Of a stretch of DNA of 25,008 nucleotides, positions 1,418-14,500 are shown piece by piece. The stretch covers positions 1 through 25,008 of IMG/VR virus record IMGVR_UViG_3300044237_003108; one strand, 5' to 3'. The translations under genes and the position numbers were made by a program. This DNA is from a virus. The stretch's first letter is position 1; every line of letters starts with the position of its first letter. The notes beneath the pieces are model-generated. The model saw only the letters and a list, made by a program, of their open reading frames with translations, ran no database searches and had not been told where the DNA came from.

Positions 1418-1734
1418 CGCTCTCTCAAATCGCAGAAAAGACCGGCATGAGCCTGCGTTTTTGGCAGGCCAAGGCTAAAGCTGGCGCTATCCCCAACTTA
1501 AAACGCCTGCGGTCGCCGAGTGGAAAAGGTTGTAAATACTTTGTTCAAGCTGATGGATTCGATGCATGGTGGGCCGGGCAGCTTGAGGATGTGAAGCCGT
1601 GTCAGGAAAGCATTATCTGTATCAGCGGGGCGAATGGTGGTGGTTTAAGAAGCGCCACAAAGGCAAAACGATTCGAGAGCCACTCGAAACGAGATCTCTT
1701 AGACAAGCTCAAGAACGTCGCGACCGCTTCTTAG
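1402..1734 (+). CDS. Excisionase-like (MerR-type winged helix) DNA-binding protein
   Basis: The N-terminal 60 residues read as a small MerR/excisionase-type winged helix: a helix-turn-helix (LTLSQIAEKTGMSLRFWQAK), a short wing (PNLKRLRSPSG) and a closing helix with aromatic residues (FDAWWAG). Proteins of this size directly upstream of a tyrosine integrase usually act as the recombination directionality factor, bending attachment-site DNA to favour excision. ATG 1402 overlaps the end of the HNH gene by 16 bases. From residue 66 the frame overlaps the integrase start for 136 bases, and the overlapped tail looks non-conserved. Assignment rests on fold pattern and position. Confidence 0.72.
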   Translation: MAGTLTLSQIAEKTGMSLRFWQAKAKAGAIPNLKRLRSPSGKGCKYFVQADGFDAWWAGQLEDVKPCQESIICISGANGGGLRSATKAKRFESHSKRDLLDKLKNVATAS

Positions 1735-2675
1735 CCGAACTTAGCGCCGGCCGATGGGGCGAGCAACGCGACAAGACTTTCAATGAAGCCGTTCACAAGT
1801 GGATTGATACGCATCTGCCAACGCTCAAGCTCAAGTCAGTGATGCGATACCGCGTGAGCCTCACGCATTTACTTGAGGATTTCGACGGCGTCCCACTCAA
1901 AGATATTACCAGCAGCAAGCTATCAGATTTTGAAGCCCGCCGCCGCAAGTCAGGCGCGACAAACCCCACTATTCGCAGAGATTTGGACTGTCTGTCTTCT
2001 CTGTTTTCAAGCTGCGAGGAATGGGAATGGTTAGACAGCAATCCAGCGCTGGCGTACAAGCGCAAACGCGCCCGCAAGGGACTGAAAGAAAGCGCACCGA
2101 AGACGCGCTATCTCTCTGTGGAGGAAGAGGAAGCTATTCTGTCAGAGGCGACAGCAACGCTTTATAGGGCGGTTGCATTTGCGATTGATACTGGTCTGAG
2201 GAAAGAAGAGCAGTTTTCTCTTCTCAAGTCTGACATTGACCTGGCCAAAGGCGTTATCAACGTTCGCCCTGAGATCACCAAGACAACGCGCGCGCGACAA
2301 GTGCCACTGCTTCCTCGGTCACTGGAGATCGTCAAGTATCTACTTGAGAACGTTCGCGGCCCTTACCTGTTCACAAGTCCCGCGACTGGCAAGCGGTACT
2401 CTGAAAAGTCAAACACGTTCTATGCACGGCTACAGCGCACCCGGACTCGGTTCGGAGTTCCGCCTGTATCATGGCATGACTTGCGGCGAACTGCCGGTTG
2501 CCGTCTTTTGAACGTCCATAGACTGAGCATGCATGAGGTTTCGTTGTGGCTTGGCCACCAGTCGATTCAGCAGACCGAACGAACTTATGCCTTCCTTGAG
2601 CAAGAACGGCTCAAAGAGGCGGTTGAGGCACAAAGTGGGGCACAATCGATAATCAAGGGAGCCGCAAACGATTGA
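1599..2675 (+). CDS. int: Tyrosine-family site-specific integrase
   Basis: This 358-residue phage integrase begins at GTG 1599, with GAGGA about 10 bases upstream. It has an N-terminal arm-type DNA-binding region (residues 1-50, aromatic YQRGEWWWFKKR), a core-binding SAM-like domain (about 55-155) and a catalytic domain (about 170-340). The active-site residues are complete: R201 (DTGLRKEE), K228 in the β-hairpin, H293 and R296 (HDLRR), H320 (LGH) and the nucleophile Y330. It should join attP to the host tRNA attB through a 3'-phosphotyrosine intermediate. The presumed attP core lies 33-78 bases past its stop, and a 19-bp repeat likely to be an arm site lies inside its own 3' end at 2627-2645. 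The overlapping upstream gene probably encodes its directionality factor. Confidence 0.96.
   Translation: MSGKHYLYQRGEWWWFKKRHKGKTIREPLETRSLRQAQERRDRFLAELSAGRWGEQRDKTFNEAVHKWIDTHLPTLKLKSVMRYRVSLTHLLEDFDGVPLKDITSSKLSDFEARRRKSGATNPTIRRDLDCLSSLFSSCEEWEWLDSNPALAYKRKRARKGLKESAPKTRYLSVEEEEAILSEATATLYRAVAFAIDTGLRKEEQFSLLKSDIDLAKGVINVRPEITKTTRARQVPLLPRSLEIVKYLLENVRGPYLFTSPATGKRYSEKSNTFYARLQRTRTRFGVPPVSWHDLRRTAGCRLLNVHRLSMHEVSLWLGHQSIQQTERTYAFLEQERLKEAVEAQSGAQSIIKGAAND
2627..2645. repeat. 19-bp direct repeat, copy 1 (candidate integrase arm site)
   Basis: The sequence ggcacaaagtggggcacaa lies within the last codons of int. An identical copy in the same orientation is at 2824-2842. The repeat itself contains gcacaa twice. 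The two copies sit 62 bases left and 70 bases right of the presumed attP core, the geometry expected of P and P' arm-type integrase sites. Confidence 0.75.
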
Positions 2676-4172: not shown

Positions 4173-4298
4173 TTATTTCTTTGCGTACTTTTTTGTAGGA
4201 GCTTTGCGCATAGGCTTTCCAGTCTTTGTCGCCGCTTTCTTTGCAGCAGCCACGCCGCTTTTCGTGTAACTATATTTCTTTTTACCAACCATCGGCAT
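4173..4298 (-). CDS. Tiny lysine/alanine-rich phage protein (KKKYSYTKSG type)
   Basis: This 41-residue protein is read from ATG 4298 to TAA 4173-4175, with GGAG seven bases upstream (ATG 4292 is the alternative). The translation MPMVGKKKYSYTKSGVAAAK continues as KAATKTGKPMRKAPTKKYAKK, a pattern of tiny basic proteins recurrent in marine phage genomes, often beside the gene that follows here. Nearly one third of residues are lysine. The pair probably binds nucleic acid or packs in the virion, but no experimental role is known to me. It lies only 22 bases before its partner gene on the same strand. Confidence 0.78.
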   Translation of the reverse strand: MPMVGKKKYSYTKSGVAAAKKAATKTGKPMRKAPTKKYAKK

Positions 4299-4393
4299 TG
4301 TACTTCTCCGCTATAATGCTGCCATCACTTTTAAAGCTGTTACGCAGGACCACGCGCCGATTGAAAATGCAAGTGCCATCCAACCGGCATAAA

Positions 4394-4630
4394 TTAACGC
4401 GTAAGATGTGTGATAATCGCTTTCGCTATTCCGGACGTCAGATCTGAGCCCGTCAGATTTAGGGCTCCTACGGTGCCCCAAACCGCTAGGACTGCCAATC
4501 CCGTCTTCAACCTTTGCGTCGCCGCTTCCAGCGCCGTCAGGCGTTTTTCTGTTTCGCTCAGTTGGGCAGAGTGCTGCCGTAATTTCATCGACATACCCCC
4601 GATCTGCCTGCCAATCTCGAAGCTGTCCAT
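4394..4630 (-). CDS. Single-pass membrane protein with coiled coil, holin candidate
   Basis: This 78-residue protein begins MDSFEIGRQIGG. An amphipathic coiled coil spans residues 14-42 (SAQLSETEKRLTALEAATQR) and is followed by a hydrophobic segment at 44-62 (GLAVLAVWGTVGALNLTG) and a short tail. Small proteins with a heptad region plus one membrane span occur beside endolysin and spanin genes in podoviruses, where some serve as holins or antiholins. This one directly follows the o-spanin gene. There is no decisive holin signature such as two or three spans with a very basic tail, so holin is a hypothesis. ATG 4630 lacks a strong ribosome site but lies just downstream of the o-spanin stop (4640), suggesting coupling. 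Confidence 0.6.
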   Translation of the reverse strand: MDSFEIGRQIGGMSMKLRQHSAQLSETEKRLTALEAATQRLKTGLAVLAVWGTVGALNLTGSDLTSGIAKAIITHLTR

Positions 4631-4639
4631 TTTTGTATG

Positions 4640-4921
4640 TCATGCGCCCGCCCGCTTAGTTTTTTGGATTTTATCTGATTTGGAGACGCGAACACAATGT
4701 TTTGACGGAGCTGAATAGCTTTTTTCAACGCCCGTCCTCAACGTATCAAGTTTGCTATTATGAACCGCCACAGCCCTTTGCATCACACAAGGAGCTTGCC
4801 GCGAATTTGGAATATTATTGAACTCCGAAAGCGCAACTGAACTAGTCAATTGAATAGGGGTCGGTAGGGAGCTGCAACCCCCGACGGCTACGGCTAGCAG
4901 CGCTCCGAATAATTTGTGCAC
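4640..4921 (-). CDS. Rz1: o-spanin (Rz1-like outer-membrane lipoprotein), overlapping the i-spanin gene
   Basis: GTG 4921 gives a 93-residue lipoprotein precursor with a short basic start (HKLFG), a hydrophobic core (ALLAVAVGG) and a lipobox ending at C16 (VGGC), followed by SSLPTPIQL. ATG 4975 in the same frame would give a long basic n-region of about 24 residues, less typical. The first 80 bases overlap the i-spanin gene out of frame, the classic embedded or overlapping Rz/Rz1 layout. Its mature part would span the periplasm from the outer membrane and bind the i-spanin to fuse the two membranes at the end of lysis. Two cysteines (C45, C76) remain in the mature chain. The body is longer than lambda Rz1. 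Confidence 0.78.
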   Translation of the reverse strand: MHKLFGALLAVAVGGCSSLPTPIQLTSSVALSEFNNIPNSRQAPCVMQRAVAVHNSKLDTLRTGVEKSYSAPSKHCVRVSKSDKIQKTKRAGA

Positions 4922-5078
4922 GTTTCTGCTCCACTTTTTCGATTTTCGACACGGCCTTACGCGCACCCTTTTCAATCAACGCCGCTCTCCAATTTAAAAA
5001 GACCGCAAAACATGCGGCCCCAACACCTATTGCAATCAGCCGCTCGCTGATTATTTGCCAGATCATCCGGACAATCAT
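4842..5078 (-). CDS. Rz: i-spanin (Rz-like inner-membrane protein)
   Basis: This 78-residue protein has one N-terminal membrane anchor (residues 11-29, ERLIAIGVGAACFAVFLNW) followed by a charged periplasmic helix (KGARKAVSKIEKVEQKRAQI) ending in a short proline-containing tail. This is the topology of the inner-membrane spanin subunit, although it is shorter than lambda Rz at about 150 residues. ATG 5078 overlaps the endolysin stop as ATGA, so it is coupled to the endolysin. The 3' end overlaps the lipobox-bearing o-spanin frame, which strongly supports the call. It acts in the final lysis step, connecting inner and outer membranes after peptidoglycan is degraded. Confidence 0.8.
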   Translation of the reverse strand: MIVRMIWQIISERLIAIGVGAACFAVFLNWRAALIEKGARKAVSKIEKVEQKRAQIIRSAASRSRRGLQLPTDPYSID

Positions 5079-5827
5079 TCGTCAACCCCGATCAGTTTTT
5101 TAATTGCGACAAAACTTGCCAGAACGATTGCGCCCCACGTCAACGCCGCAGCGTTTGCGCCAGCTTGCTCAAACATGATTTTGACCGGCGATAATTCTGC
5201 GACCGTTGCTGCCATCGCTTGCAGCCACGCCGAAATATTTTCCGCCCATCCGCTGAGCAAAATTGCGCCGCCCCCGGCTGCAGTCGGCAGCGAAACCGGA
5301 GCTTTTACCGCTTTTTTTGCAACAGCCGTGATTGGGTCATTTACCGGCGCTTTGCTTAGCCCAAAAGCCTCAAAGTGAGCTAGCCGCCATTCCAAATCTG
5401 AAAGCGGATACACTTTTCCCGCTTCGTGATAAGCCATGGCGCGGGCAAACGAGACGGCCCAATCAATGTCTTGCAATTTTGCCTGGGTGATCATGTCATC
5501 CGGACTTATATTCGCTTTTTGCTTCAGCACAGACAAATAGCTCTGCACGTGATTGCCGCCGGACCATTTGCGGATTGCTGCCTTCACCGTGCGATTGCAA
5601 TATCCGCTCTCGAGAAGCTGAAATAAACAGCGCGCGCCATCGATTGCGTCGTCGAAATACGCAATTGAATTGTTTTGCCCAAGACCATCATTCAGCTTTT
5701 GACCGCCAATTGCTCGACGATTTCGCGTGAATTTACTGTCCCAAATGGCACCCGGATTATTGCTGCGGATCGACGCCACTTCACTTTTGCGATCTAAAAA
5801 AGACGGCCGATCATCATTGTCTAACAT
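5075..5827 (-). CDS. Membrane-anchored endolysin-like peptidoglycan hydrolase
   Basis: This is a 250-residue protein. Residues about 15-160 resemble a phage peptidoglycan-hydrolase domain of the kind annotated as structural protein P5-like or lysozyme-like: an R-x-N-N-P-G motif at 21-26 (IRSNNPGAIW), a DGARCLFQLL helix at 63-72, KWSGGN at 87-92, and AYHEAGKVYPLSDLEW at 132-147. E135 is a possible catalytic acid. The C-terminal third is hydrophobic, with a segment at 183-212 and a clear membrane span at 222-246 (ALTWGAIVLASFVAIKKLIG). The enzyme may be tethered to, or exported through, the inner membrane without a classical holin. It starts at ATG 5827 as TAATG with the upstream stop, and the i-spanin follows by an ATGA overlap, forming a lysis cassette. 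Confidence 0.76.
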   Translation of the reverse strand: MLDNDDRPSFLDRKSEVASIRSNNPGAIWDSKFTRNRRAIGGQKLNDGLGQNNSIAYFDDAIDGARCLFQLLESGYCNRTVKAAIRKWSGGNHVQSYLSVLKQKANISPDDMITQAKLQDIDWAVSFARAMAYHEAGKVYPLSDLEWRLAHFEAFGLSKAPVNDPITAVAKKAVKAPVSLPTAAGGGAILLSGWAENISAWLQAMAATVAELSPVKIMFEQAGANAAALTWGAIVLASFVAIKKLIGVDE

Positions 5828-6828
5828 TATGCATACCTCGCGTTAATGCGCTCCACAGCCTGCATTAAGAGGGCTAGGCTGTCATCTGTATGATCGTGCT
5901 GCTGCAGGACAATGCGGGCCTCTTCTGCCTCTTGCTTGGCTGTCGGGCGCAAATCCGGCAAGGGGTTACGTTCCCAAGCGGGCGGCTCTGGCTCGCGTCG
6001 AGCCGGCATTGACGCCCCACTGAATGCAAGCAGAATAGCGGCTGCCATTGAAGCAAACGTAACGGCGATACCGGACCAGATCGACAGCCCGTAGTTAGCC
6101 CAAAACTTCGCGCCTGCCGACGGATCGACTTGACCTGTGATGCCGGCCGCAACGTTACTGGCATGCGTGAGCGCGGCGCTTGCTTGGGTTGGCGTCTCGG
6201 TAACTTGGACTTTCGCGTCCTTTAGCTCACGCTCTAGTGTCACCATTTCGGTTTTCAGCGCTTCGCGGCGCAACGCGTTAACACGCTCTGATCTGAGACT
6301 ATCAAGCTCCCTCATGCGCGCTTCACACTTCACACCACAACCGCCGCGCTTGCTTTCCATCTCCACATACTTCTCACCGCTTTCGATCAGCTTGTCGTAT
6401 GCGCCTGGTGCTCGGAAGCTGCCCGTCCATGTGACATCGGCCCGGATCTCTGCAATGCGCTTCTCTAGGCGTTGCACCTGGCTCCGTGCGTTCTTTGCAT
6501 TCGTGTTCTGGTTATCAGCACGAACTAGGTCCGCTTGCCGAAACAGTGCGGCCGTTCCGCCATTCGTCACTAGATCCGTGAAAATGAAAAAAACTGCAAA
6601 AGGGGCAAGGATCGCAACACGAACATAATTGCCCCTAACTAACGTCGAAAACGTGCGGTTTACTAAGATCGGACACAAGGCAGAGATCAGCGCGAAAACG
6701 ATGAAAAACACCGCCATTAAAAACCAGCTATCACCGCCGAATGTTGAACCGAATATTCCTGTGAGGATACAACTACAGACTGCTATGGTCCAAGCAATCA
6801 TTTCCAGCATGCGATGGTTGGAAATCAT
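5827..6828 (-). CDS. Multi-pass membrane protein with large coiled-coil region
   Basis: This 333-residue protein has N-terminal membrane spans (about residues 9-30, 34-57 and 71-88). A long charged coiled coil of about residues 100-215 follows, including KNARSQVQRLEKRIAEIRAD and LERELKDAKVQVTE. Another membrane span lies near 245-270 (LSIWSGIAVTFASMAAAILL), before a proline-rich cytoplasmic tail. Two cysteines sit close together in the coiled coil (GGCGVKC), a possible intramolecular disulfide if the region is periplasmic. Similar membrane/coiled-coil proteins occur in rhizobial and roseobacter phages without known function. It lies between a coiled-coil protein gene (ATGA overlap) and the endolysin (TAATG), so it may serve in lysis timing or superinfection exclusion. 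Neither role is proven by motif. Confidence 0.74.
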   Translation of the reverse strand: MISNHRMLEMIAWTIAVCSCILTGIFGSTFGGDSWFLMAVFFIVFALISALCPILVNRTFSTLVRGNYVRVAILAPFAVFFIFTDLVTNGGTAALFRQADLVRADNQNTNAKNARSQVQRLEKRIAEIRADVTWTGSFRAPGAYDKLIESGEKYVEMESKRGGCGVKCEARMRELDSLRSERVNALRREALKTEMVTLERELKDAKVQVTETPTQASAALTHASNVAAGITGQVDPSAGAKFWANYGLSIWSGIAVTFASMAAAILLAFSGASMPARREPEPPAWERNPLPDLRPTAKQEAEEARIVLQQHDHTDDSLALLMQAVERINARYA

Positions 6829-11543: not shown

Positions 11544-14500
11544 TAAAATGGTGCCTCTTCGCCGGTTCGCCCTTGTTCTCTTTCGATTTCGTCCGCCTTC
11601 CTGGCAGCTTCGCTAAGGGCTGGATGCTCGCGGATGGTCTGGATTGATGCCACCTTGCGAAAATTGGAGATAATCTTTCTGATGATGTCAGTTTTGCCCT
11701 TGTGGTCCTGGATTGCGTATTCCGGATCACCCTTGATTACACCATCCAGAACTTCATAGAGCGTCTGATCCCCATACCGCTCCATTTTTCTAATCAAATG
11801 CTTGTTCCGGTTAACCGCTGCCAAATCATCTCTGTTTTCCCTCAAAAGCTGGCTTGCGGTTGTCTTTGCCGTGAGTTCAATCCACTTGTTTTTAGCAGCC
11901 GGCCTATTGCGCAAAGATATTTGGCGACCACCACCCATGTGGATACTGCCACGGTGTGCAGGGAAATAACCGATCTTTACAAACTCACGATCCACATCAT
12001 TCGCCTTTGTGTTGTCGCTGGAATAGATTGGACTAAATGCGTCGTATGCATCGCCAAGGTTTGACTTGTAGCTGATTGGACGGCCCCAAAAATCCAGCCG
12101 AGGCGGCAAGCCTTCGCGGAAGTACGGCAATTTTGCTTTCAGTGAAGACGTCAAATCCCATGTGTGACGCGCAACCGGATCTTCAGTCATAGCCCACTGC
12201 TTAACGCCTGTCGGTATGACCGTTGTTATGATGCTGTTTAAATAGCGTTCTGAATACCTGTGAGGCTCTTGGATCGCCGTTATAGTCCTTGCTACCCCAG
12301 TAAAATAACTCTTGTCTGTGATGTTCCTGGCCACACCCATCGCCGTTGCAGAAAATATTTCCATGATATCCGCATCATGCGCCGTGCTATCATTGTTGAT
12401 AGTAAATTCCGCCAAGTCAGCCGCAAACCCGATATACATGCCGACCGGATCCATGCGGTTGTAAGCAACCCAACGATATTGCGGAGATCCGTCCTTATTG
12501 GTCCCGGTTTGCAATCGGATAGAATAAGGCTGCCAGCCGTTACGCCTTAGCGTTGCCCGCTTGCGCCAACCCTTGTCACCCTCCGGGCCGCCGCCTGAGA
12601 TATTCCCGTCAAGAGCAAAGCTGTAGAATGTCGCCATGACGGTCGAGCCAAGCCCCACACGTGCAAGGGCAAGGTCGCGCCGTGCGCCACCCGCTGCCAC
12701 ATCTGCGCGAAACTTAGCGCCAAGTGGTGCAAGTGGTGTTCTGTCGAATGTGTAACTGAGGATGTTGGCCGGCGTATTGACAAACGGAATAATGATTGAG
12801 CCCGATGGCAAACCTATAGAGCGTGACGAGTGATAGTCTAGGGCATCCCTGAAGCCCATAAGAGCCTTGGCAACCCTGTTCGGATCATTCGTAAAGGTGT
12901 TGATCAAAGCGCTATTCTCTGCGCTTGTGATGAGATCTCTAGGCGGATCGTCAATGATATCCGCAATTCGCGCGTTAACGTCCGCTTTCTTCAACAATCC
13001 TTGCTCCACTTCTGACAGTGCTCGACGCGCTGCGCTTGCGTGCAGTTCCATGCGATAGTTGATTGTTTTGAAATACGTGTCAGCCGCGCCAAGCGCTGAG
13101 CCTGGTATATTGACGATTGATCCAACCATATCAACCGCACGGCCCCATGGCGTTGCCGGATCAAGATCCATATTCTCGGATGAGATTGCGCGCGTGCGTT
13201 GCGTTTCCAGCTTGTCCCGTCCGATTCTAACAAACGGATCATCCGCACCCTTTGAGGCGTCCATCTGTTTCGCAGCAATCTTCATACGATGATAGGCCCA
13301 ACGAAACATATCTCGATGTGCTTTCACCATGGCATCCAGGGCAACACCGCCCTCAATGGCCTTAACACCTGTTACCGGGTCAAGAACTTCACCAATCGCG
13401 CCGGCTAGCTGTCGCTCAACTAGGCTGTTCACCATAACCAGTGAGTTCGAAAGCATGTTGACGACATGCGTTTTCGGACCTGACAGAATCGAGTTGATAA
13501 AGAATTCGCGAACCGCGTCGGCAGACTTGGCTTGCCATGACTTGCGTATGAAGTTTTCGAGAACTTCCGGCGATTGCGTATTCGCGAGAATGGCTATGTT
13601 TTCAGCGATTTCACGAGTTGTATGCTCCCCGCCGGAACTTTCGACGGCAAGCTTAATTTGTCTCAGCTTATCGGCACTTGATCCAGCCGGGATTGCCCAC
13701 TGTTGAAGCGCACGGGCTGTTTCTGTTCTAACACCCATCGCGGCCTGTTGAATGGTGTTGTGAATGGTCAACATGCGGCGGAAGGCAAAGAGCGTTTCTT
13801 GATCGCCGGTCTGGGCGGCCCTTGCAAGTTCGGTTAGCTTTTCACCGGATGACGCCCAAAGCTGTCGGAGCGCATATTGCTCTTCTGCATTCATGGCAAG
13901 CGAGCTATCAGCCCTGCGTTTGCCTGTTAGTAGCTCCCACGCATTCTCATCACCCGCCGCTGCAACTGTTCGGATATTCGAGCGCTTGCCGCGTTGTGCG
14001 GTTTTGATCTCAGCGCGCTGCCCTTCCGCCATGCGGCTGACAGTTGTAAGCACATCATCTTGACTATTGAACTTTGACCAGTTGATAATGTCTTTTGTGT
14101 TTTCAAGTTCAGGTAGTGGCGGCGGTTTCTTGCCGAGTTGCGGCCCTGACTGAGCCGGTGCAAGCCGTGCCTGCATTGTGTGCGGATCTTCTGCCTGACG
14201 TCGTCCTAAAACCCGGTCCACTTCCGCCCATTGATCAGCATCAGCCTTTGGAACGTCAGCATAAACCAACCTGTCGCCTTCACCGACTTTTGAACGCACT
14301 TCGTCCAGGTTGCGGCTGTACGTTAGAACTTTGCCCTCTTGCGCCTCTTTAGCGCCTGCTACAGCGTAATATCTGACGTTCCCGTCAGCTACGTCCGGAA
14401 ACCTATAAGCGCCCTTATCGAGCCCCTTAGCGGCTACTTGCAAAGGCACTTCAACATGAACATGCTTTAGCTTGCCTTCGATCCGGACAACTTCATCCGC

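Follow-up and report, generated by a model that had tools for sequence, protein, structure and literature searches.

Several phage endolysins with a membrane segment at the C terminus have been described, and the idea of such an enzyme is already published for ORF39 of Hafnia phage Enc34, M4Lys of Salmonella phage BSPM4, and LysAP of Acidovorax phage AP1. In M4Lys a C-terminal transmembrane domain (TMD) is attached to a muralytic 'virion protein' domain. On overexpression, M4Lys and LysAP are reported to lyse E. coli by themselves, and lysis was lost upon deletion of the TMD of either enzyme (PMC7143992, PMC8879335). The published accounts are in accord on the requirement for the tail and differ on two points. 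Azide delays lysis by LysAP, from which involvement of Sec was inferred (PMC8879335), while M4Lys was judged to be Sec-free (PMC7143992). As for the bond that is cut, an endopeptidase peak is reported for M4Lys (PMC7143992), whereas the Enc34 paper describes a GH73/GH23-like fold and argues for glycoside-hydrolase relatives (PMC8943055). A holin or holin candidate is named in the accounts of all three systems: HolAP with LysAP, ORF37 with M4Lys, and ORF38 in Enc34. Moreover, ORF52 of BSPM4 is reported to modulate holin function (PMC11657625), so that accessory lysis-timing proteins have a precedent in the C-tailed class.

The window studied here is a 25,008-base IMG/VR virus record. Judging from gene order and from a tblastn search with its 1361-aa protein (26 records matched, each with less than 60% identity), the phage is a predicted podovirus, a distant relative of Pelagibacter and Roseobacter phages. 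The lysis genes are on the minus strand and read, from 5' to 3', 333-aa protein with four hydrophobic segments, endolysin, i-spanin, o-spanin, and ORF B with ORF A inside it. An earlier note on this DNA covered the interval 4640-5827, which stops just short of ORFs A and B. The features are as follows.

5827..6828 (minus strand), protein of 333 aa in which four segments are hydrophobic; joined to the endolysin gene at TAATG; alternative gene in the holin position.
5075..5827 (minus strand), endolysin-like gene of 250 aa; Enc34-type catalytic domain at the N terminus and membrane tail at the C terminus, by PHROG, PDB profile and Foldseek.
5360..5776 (minus strand), catalytic domain, residues about 18-156; W88, Y97 and E135 align with Trp79, Tyr95 and Glu131 of Enc34.
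5195..5254 (minus strand), proximal amphipathic helix, residues 192-211; low-confidence model, pLDDT below 50.
5102..5158 (minus strand), C-terminal transmembrane (TM) segment, residues 224-242, by hydrophobicity.
5075..5078 (minus strand), ATGA overlap of endolysin stop and i-spanin start, read from the sequence; overlap of equal length in 10 of 11 cassettes.
4842..5078 (minus strand), putative i-spanin, 78 aa, with an N-terminal TM segment (residues 9-27) by hydrophobicity; no family match.
4640..4921 (minus strand), putative o-spanin, starting with GTG and carrying the lipobox VGGC; shares part of the i-spanin gene in the +1 register.
4929..4932 (minus strand), GGAG, Shine-Dalgarno-like site of the o-spanin.
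4311..4643 (minus strand), ORF B, 110 aa, polar in its N-terminal part and with a TM segment at the C terminus (residues 83-101); its ATG overlaps the o-spanin TGA, and it holds ORF A in another frame.
4394..4630 (minus strand), ORF A, 78 aa, long helix with a hydrophobic stretch at residues 41-59; holin-like, nested in ORF B.

The catalytic domain of the endolysin is related to that of Enc34 ORF39. The window protein has no match above the cut-off in Pfam and NCBIfam scans and matches PHROG 873 (phrog_873, 'endolysin') with an E value of 3.6e-5. A phmmer search of the PDB with the protein alone gives no relevant match, and a single-protein scan of viral sequences found no relatives; alignments were required to find them. 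A profile of four proteins (A1: the window enzyme, MW202785.1, phiCjT23, and a segment of BUCT711) matches the Enc34 endolysin catalytic domain (PDB 7q47) at E 7.6e-21 and Gp29 (9vvp) at E 1.9e-24. With a profile from the seven nearest endolysin relatives only (A7), 7q47 is absent at E<=1, so the strong sequence match requires the wider alignment. An AlphaFold2 model built from the same seven relatives only has a well-defined catalytic core (pLDDT about 85-94) and a tail mostly below 50. Foldseek finds 7q47 as the sole significant fold match of this model (both chains, E 2e-5, probability 1.00). The identity between the two enzymes is about 25%, and W88, Y97 and E135 are invariant in 10/10 aligned rows, the Enc34 row among them; the roles of the equivalent Enc34 residues are described in PMC8943055. 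The relatives of the endolysin-like ORF are muralytic domains by both profile and fold, and by homology to 7q47 together with the W/Y/E residues the window enzyme is assigned to the Enc34 type (PHA02564) and is predicted to be muralytic.

The domain plan of the window enzyme is also that described for ORF39 (PMC8943055), with a TM segment following the catalytic domain. The highest 19-residue Kyte-Doolittle (KD) average in the tail is 1.79, at residues 224-242. This is the sole hydrophobic segment of the protein, and the weakly hydrophobic N-terminal TM segment of SAR endolysins is absent. All ten C-tailed relatives that were measured have a C-terminal membrane segment (KD 1.55-2.42), compared with values of 0.62-1.06 in the stand-alone, tail-less relatives L009, L011 and L017. 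The earlier note had spoken of C-terminal membrane spans in the plural. One clear span is present; the second helix of the tail (residues 192-211 in the model) is amphipathic and lies below the threshold of 1.6.

Relatives of the enzyme were found at 24 distinct loci (L002, 15 from one search, L029, L036, L037, L038-L041 and L072), a count that leaves out BUCT711, phiCjT23 and weaker genome matches. Eleven belong to the C-tailed cassette type (L002, L006, L010, L015, L018, L019, L029, L036, L038, L040 and L072), and two others, also C-tailed, are variants carrying additional sequence (L039 and L041). The domain stands alone without a tail in four (L009, L011, L012 and L017) and lies inside a large protein in seven (L005, L007, L008, L013, L014, L016 and L037). 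A contig of a Hyphomicrobium MAG carries one of the relatives. When 397 and 385 whole genomes were searched, no additional cassette was found; the loci from the first of these searches were covered by the nested-pair scans described below. In L009, L011 and L012 the gene after that of the tail-less enzyme codes for a protein with two hydrophobic segments, and in L017 for one with a single such segment. In L009 (1022-1938) and L011 (2080-2987) the two genes are directly adjacent, a holin-like arrangement. Gp10 of the small (7.6 kb) Flavobacterium phage phiCjT23 (L004, 3495-4049) has the enzyme domain and a hydrophobic C-terminal stretch, and in Klebsiella phage BUCT711 the domain is within an 832-aa protein. 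In L041 (3956-5194) it is joined to another domain (by eye, CHAP/NlpC-like) and several hydrophobic segments, with the nested pair described below still following.

The endolysin is coupled to the gene that follows, as the earlier note had claimed. The i-spanin ATG (5078-5076) overlaps the endolysin TGA (5077-5075), and the endolysin stop and i-spanin start share four bases in 10 of 11 cassettes, the window included and L019 left out of the count (ATGA or GTGA, the latter in L040). The exception is L072, where about 0.8 kb separates the two genes; a long ORF is located in this region (4325-5139). Enc34 has a 4-nt overlap at the matching junction (endolysin end 1195, Rz start 1192). The o-spanin frame begins inside the i-spanin gene, again in agreement with the earlier note, with a GTG at 4921 (within 4842-5078), a GGAG seven nucleotides upstream of it, a VGGC lipobox, and its end at 4640.

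Overlapped (P2-like) two-component spanins, as described in PMC6139136, share a TM i-spanin and a lipoprotein o-spanin that starts inside the i-spanin gene and extends beyond it in the +1 register. The putative window spanins have this layout, with an N-terminal TM segment, a lipobox, and an o-spanin that starts inside and ends beyond its partner. They differ from the class in that family membership goes no further than a weak match of the o-spanin to PHROG 456 (phrog_456, Rz-like spanin, E 0.011); the i-spanin has no family match in Pfam and PHROG scans. Recurrence provides stronger support than PHROG: the spanin pair is found in the relatives, and the o-spanin has 33% identity to its L010 counterpart. 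The TM segment, the ATGA junction and the spanin layout together support an endolysin that is tethered to the membrane at its C terminus and coupled to a pair of overlapping spanins. Both the endolysin and the spanins belong to known kinds, and the central idea of the earlier note is therefore not new.

Directly after the o-spanin are two small membrane ORFs, A and B, with ORF A lying wholly inside ORF B, which is in the -1 frame. In the window and its relatives, ORF B starts 4-22 nt ahead of A and ends 50-113 nt past it, with a C-terminal TM segment in every locus (11 loci). Where it overlaps A, B is polar, of low complexity and poorly conserved; this part is positively charged in the relatives and has a net charge of -1 in the window. 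ORF A is modeled as one continuous helix with low confidence (pLDDT 64), lacks a clear Shine-Dalgarno sequence in the window, and has homologues at the matching position in relatives (26% identity to that of L010). The nested pair is present in the window, in L002, L010, L015, L018, L019, L029, L036, L038, L040 and L072, and in the variant L041, where it was placed by position (the intervening genes are putative spanins at most). It is thus found in 10/10 assessable C-tailed relatives; L006 is outside this count, as its contig ends about 200 bases past the o-spanin. The other variant, L039, has the tail and the spanins without the pair.

A scan of 838 kb (both strands counted, duplicate contigs included) for ATG-started nested ORFs with hydrophobic segments in both members found ten distinct pairs, all in the position after the o-spanin and none elsewhere. 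Because L010 had been seen before the hydrophobicity threshold of 1.1 was chosen for A, the scan was not blind for the earlier loci; L072, obtained after that choice, fits the pattern. With all start codons allowed, three further hydrophobic pairs appear elsewhere (L038 at 6584, the window plus strand at 11798, and L052 at 2688), which are taken as background. Control records (two Enc34 pieces, CRP-114, MW202733.1 and HTVC025P) have no hydrophobic nested pair. MW202785.1, used as a control as well, shows solely the pair of its own cassette, and this solely once GTG starts are allowed. Its GenBank entry annotates just 56 aa of A and, for B, a tail of 35 aa, each labeled 'hypothetical'.

Family searches identify the two ORFs poorly. 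None of window A, B, i-spanin and o-spanin has a curated holin, spanin or Pfam match reaching the cut-off, and window A is not matched by the XhlA or PHROG hemolysin profiles. Among the ten relatives of A that were scanned, the L036 member matches PHROG 1193 (phrog_1193, 'hemolysin') at E 6.8e-4; a tblastn search with it in phages gave no match. Weaker matches are seen for L018 (phrog_1193, E 0.1) and L015 (phrog_937, E 0.088), and Pfam XhlA matches one of the ten below the cut-off (E 0.062).

Whether ORF B is a gene bears directly on how the pair is read. One explanation is that A is the sole gene, and B is a chance frame or just a TM tail made from an internal start. The low complexity and poor conservation of the overlapped part agree with this, as do the start codons near the tail in some loci (ATG 5389 in L036, TTG 6401 in L010, GTG 5448 in L029) and the GenBank annotation of B in MW202785.1 as the 35-aa tail. 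In the window, however, there is no start codon between the A stop and the TM segment of B, and that segment is present every time. Moreover, the -1 frame is open across A in 11/11 loci and the +1 frame in 0/11 (L019, a near-copy of L018, is left out). The chance of an open B is 0.003-0.10 per locus in ten loci and 0.17 in L072 by synonymous resampling, and 0.01-0.46 by codon permutation. The joint P is 10^-15.2 (resampling, 10 loci) or 10^-9.9 (permutation, 11 loci), in each case on the assumption of independent loci, although the loci are related. Nine single changes between L018 and L019, the only close pair, are synonymous in A. Four of the nine are also synonymous in B, against 3-5% expected (P 7e-5 to 8e-4 for this single pair), while the other five change B, and the overlapped part is therefore under partial constraint at best. 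The selection test comprises one pair, since a search for sequences close to L018 and to L038 yielded just known contigs. On balance, A as the sole gene is unlikely. It is highly improbable that B instead arises from A by -1 frameshifting, through which A would gain a second TM segment. B does lie in the -1 frame of A, with its TM segment just beyond the A stop, but in nearly all loci it has its own start beside the o-spanin stop. Slippery X XXY YYZ heptamers were sought in the frame of A and found in 0/11 loci, and a frameshift origin was rejected.

The earlier note had seen no classical multi-span holin, and had proposed that control of lysis may therefore lie in the membrane region of the endolysin itself; on this reading the C-terminal region would insert, time and trigger lysis, and no holin would be required. 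The first statement does not hold, with a four-segment, 333-aa protein immediately upstream and two small TM ORFs immediately downstream. The proposal loses its support with it, because holin-like candidates flank the interval and A and B recur at the matching position in relatives. The window enzyme is built on the plan of M4Lys and LysAP, and the lysis of E. coli by these two enzymes alone speaks for holin-free action. On the other hand, the published systems encode holin candidates, HolAP speeds lysis by LysAP (PMC8879335), and lysis without a holin was observed with overexpressed enzyme, a point on which the Enc34 authors themselves urge caution (PMC8943055). We regard holin-free lysis as quite improbable here. 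The 333-aa protein might be the holin, with a different role for A and B. It occupies the position of the Enc34 holin (ORF38), its gene adjoins the endolysin start (TAATG), and it contains four hydrophobic segments. It is far larger than typical holins, however, with a long central polar region, and its matches are weak (phrog_689 holin, E 0.068; XhlA, E 0.12). Nine relatives were screened, and an upstream ORF with at least three segments of KD at least 1.5 was not listed in them. We give this assignment little credence. As a conserved holin the protein was rejected, having no relative in phages or in viral contigs.

A and B fit the predicted holin class in size, position and TM content, and we take A and/or B, whose expression and function are inferred, to be the separate holin(s) that would trigger the tethered enzyme. 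The locus is probably a late lysis operon, in which an Enc34-type tailed muralytic enzyme and overlapping spanins are combined with a nested holin-like pair, A within B. The enzyme would accumulate at the inner membrane through its tail. At the time of lysis, A and/or B, acting as holin or pinholin and perhaps with one restraining the other, would collapse or open the membrane, and the enzyme would then gain access to the peptidoglycan. The spanin pair would disrupt the outer membrane last. More tentatively, and with considerable doubt, the lysis switch may be written twice: A and tail-anchored B may be translated from fully nested frames whose starts lie 4-22 nt from each other, and initiation would then fix their ratio (for example, of holin to antiholin) and hence the time of endolysin release.

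Comparison with the described systems places the nested pair apart. Enc34 (ORF39) shares the catalytic fold, the W/Y/E residues, the C-terminal TM segment, the 4-nt overlap at the i-spanin start and the overlapping spanin pair, but has a small holin upstream and lacks the nested pair downstream. M4Lys, compared by its published description, has the required TMD and differs in its reported endopeptidase activity (PMC7143992). LysAP, termed a 'C-terminal SAR endolysin', is likewise accompanied by a separate one-TM holin, but according to its report it has a GH24 lysozyme domain rather than an Enc34-type domain, its lysis is delayed by azide, and no spanin was found (PMC8879335). The XhlA-type 'hemolysin' and two-holin systems (LysF1a/LysF1b) resemble the pair in having a small helical one-TM protein and two holin-like proteins per cassette; nesting is absent from the description of those genes (PMC13056207), and window A has no XhlA match. 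No description of a nested holin gene pair was found in the one open-access library that was searched, with the terms used, and within that scope the A/B pair is apparently unreported.

Enc34-type C-tailed endolysins, described in enterobacterial phages, now extend to podovirus-like phages. The same domain without a tail, beside a gene with two hydrophobic segments, offers a natural comparison for how the enzyme gains access to the peptidoglycan. If translated, A and B would be a conserved dual-coded lysis regulator that has been missed by annotation.

Other genes of the window were labeled by reading the ORFs by eye (integrase-like, capsid/tail), and no tRNA was found in it. An integrase-like ORF (a tyrosine recombinase by eye; 1599-2675, plus strand) adjoins the lysis end of the record and suggests a temperate phage. 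A 41-aa lysine-rich ORF (4173-4298, minus strand) matches phrog_33179, a family of unknown function, at E 4.5e-10.
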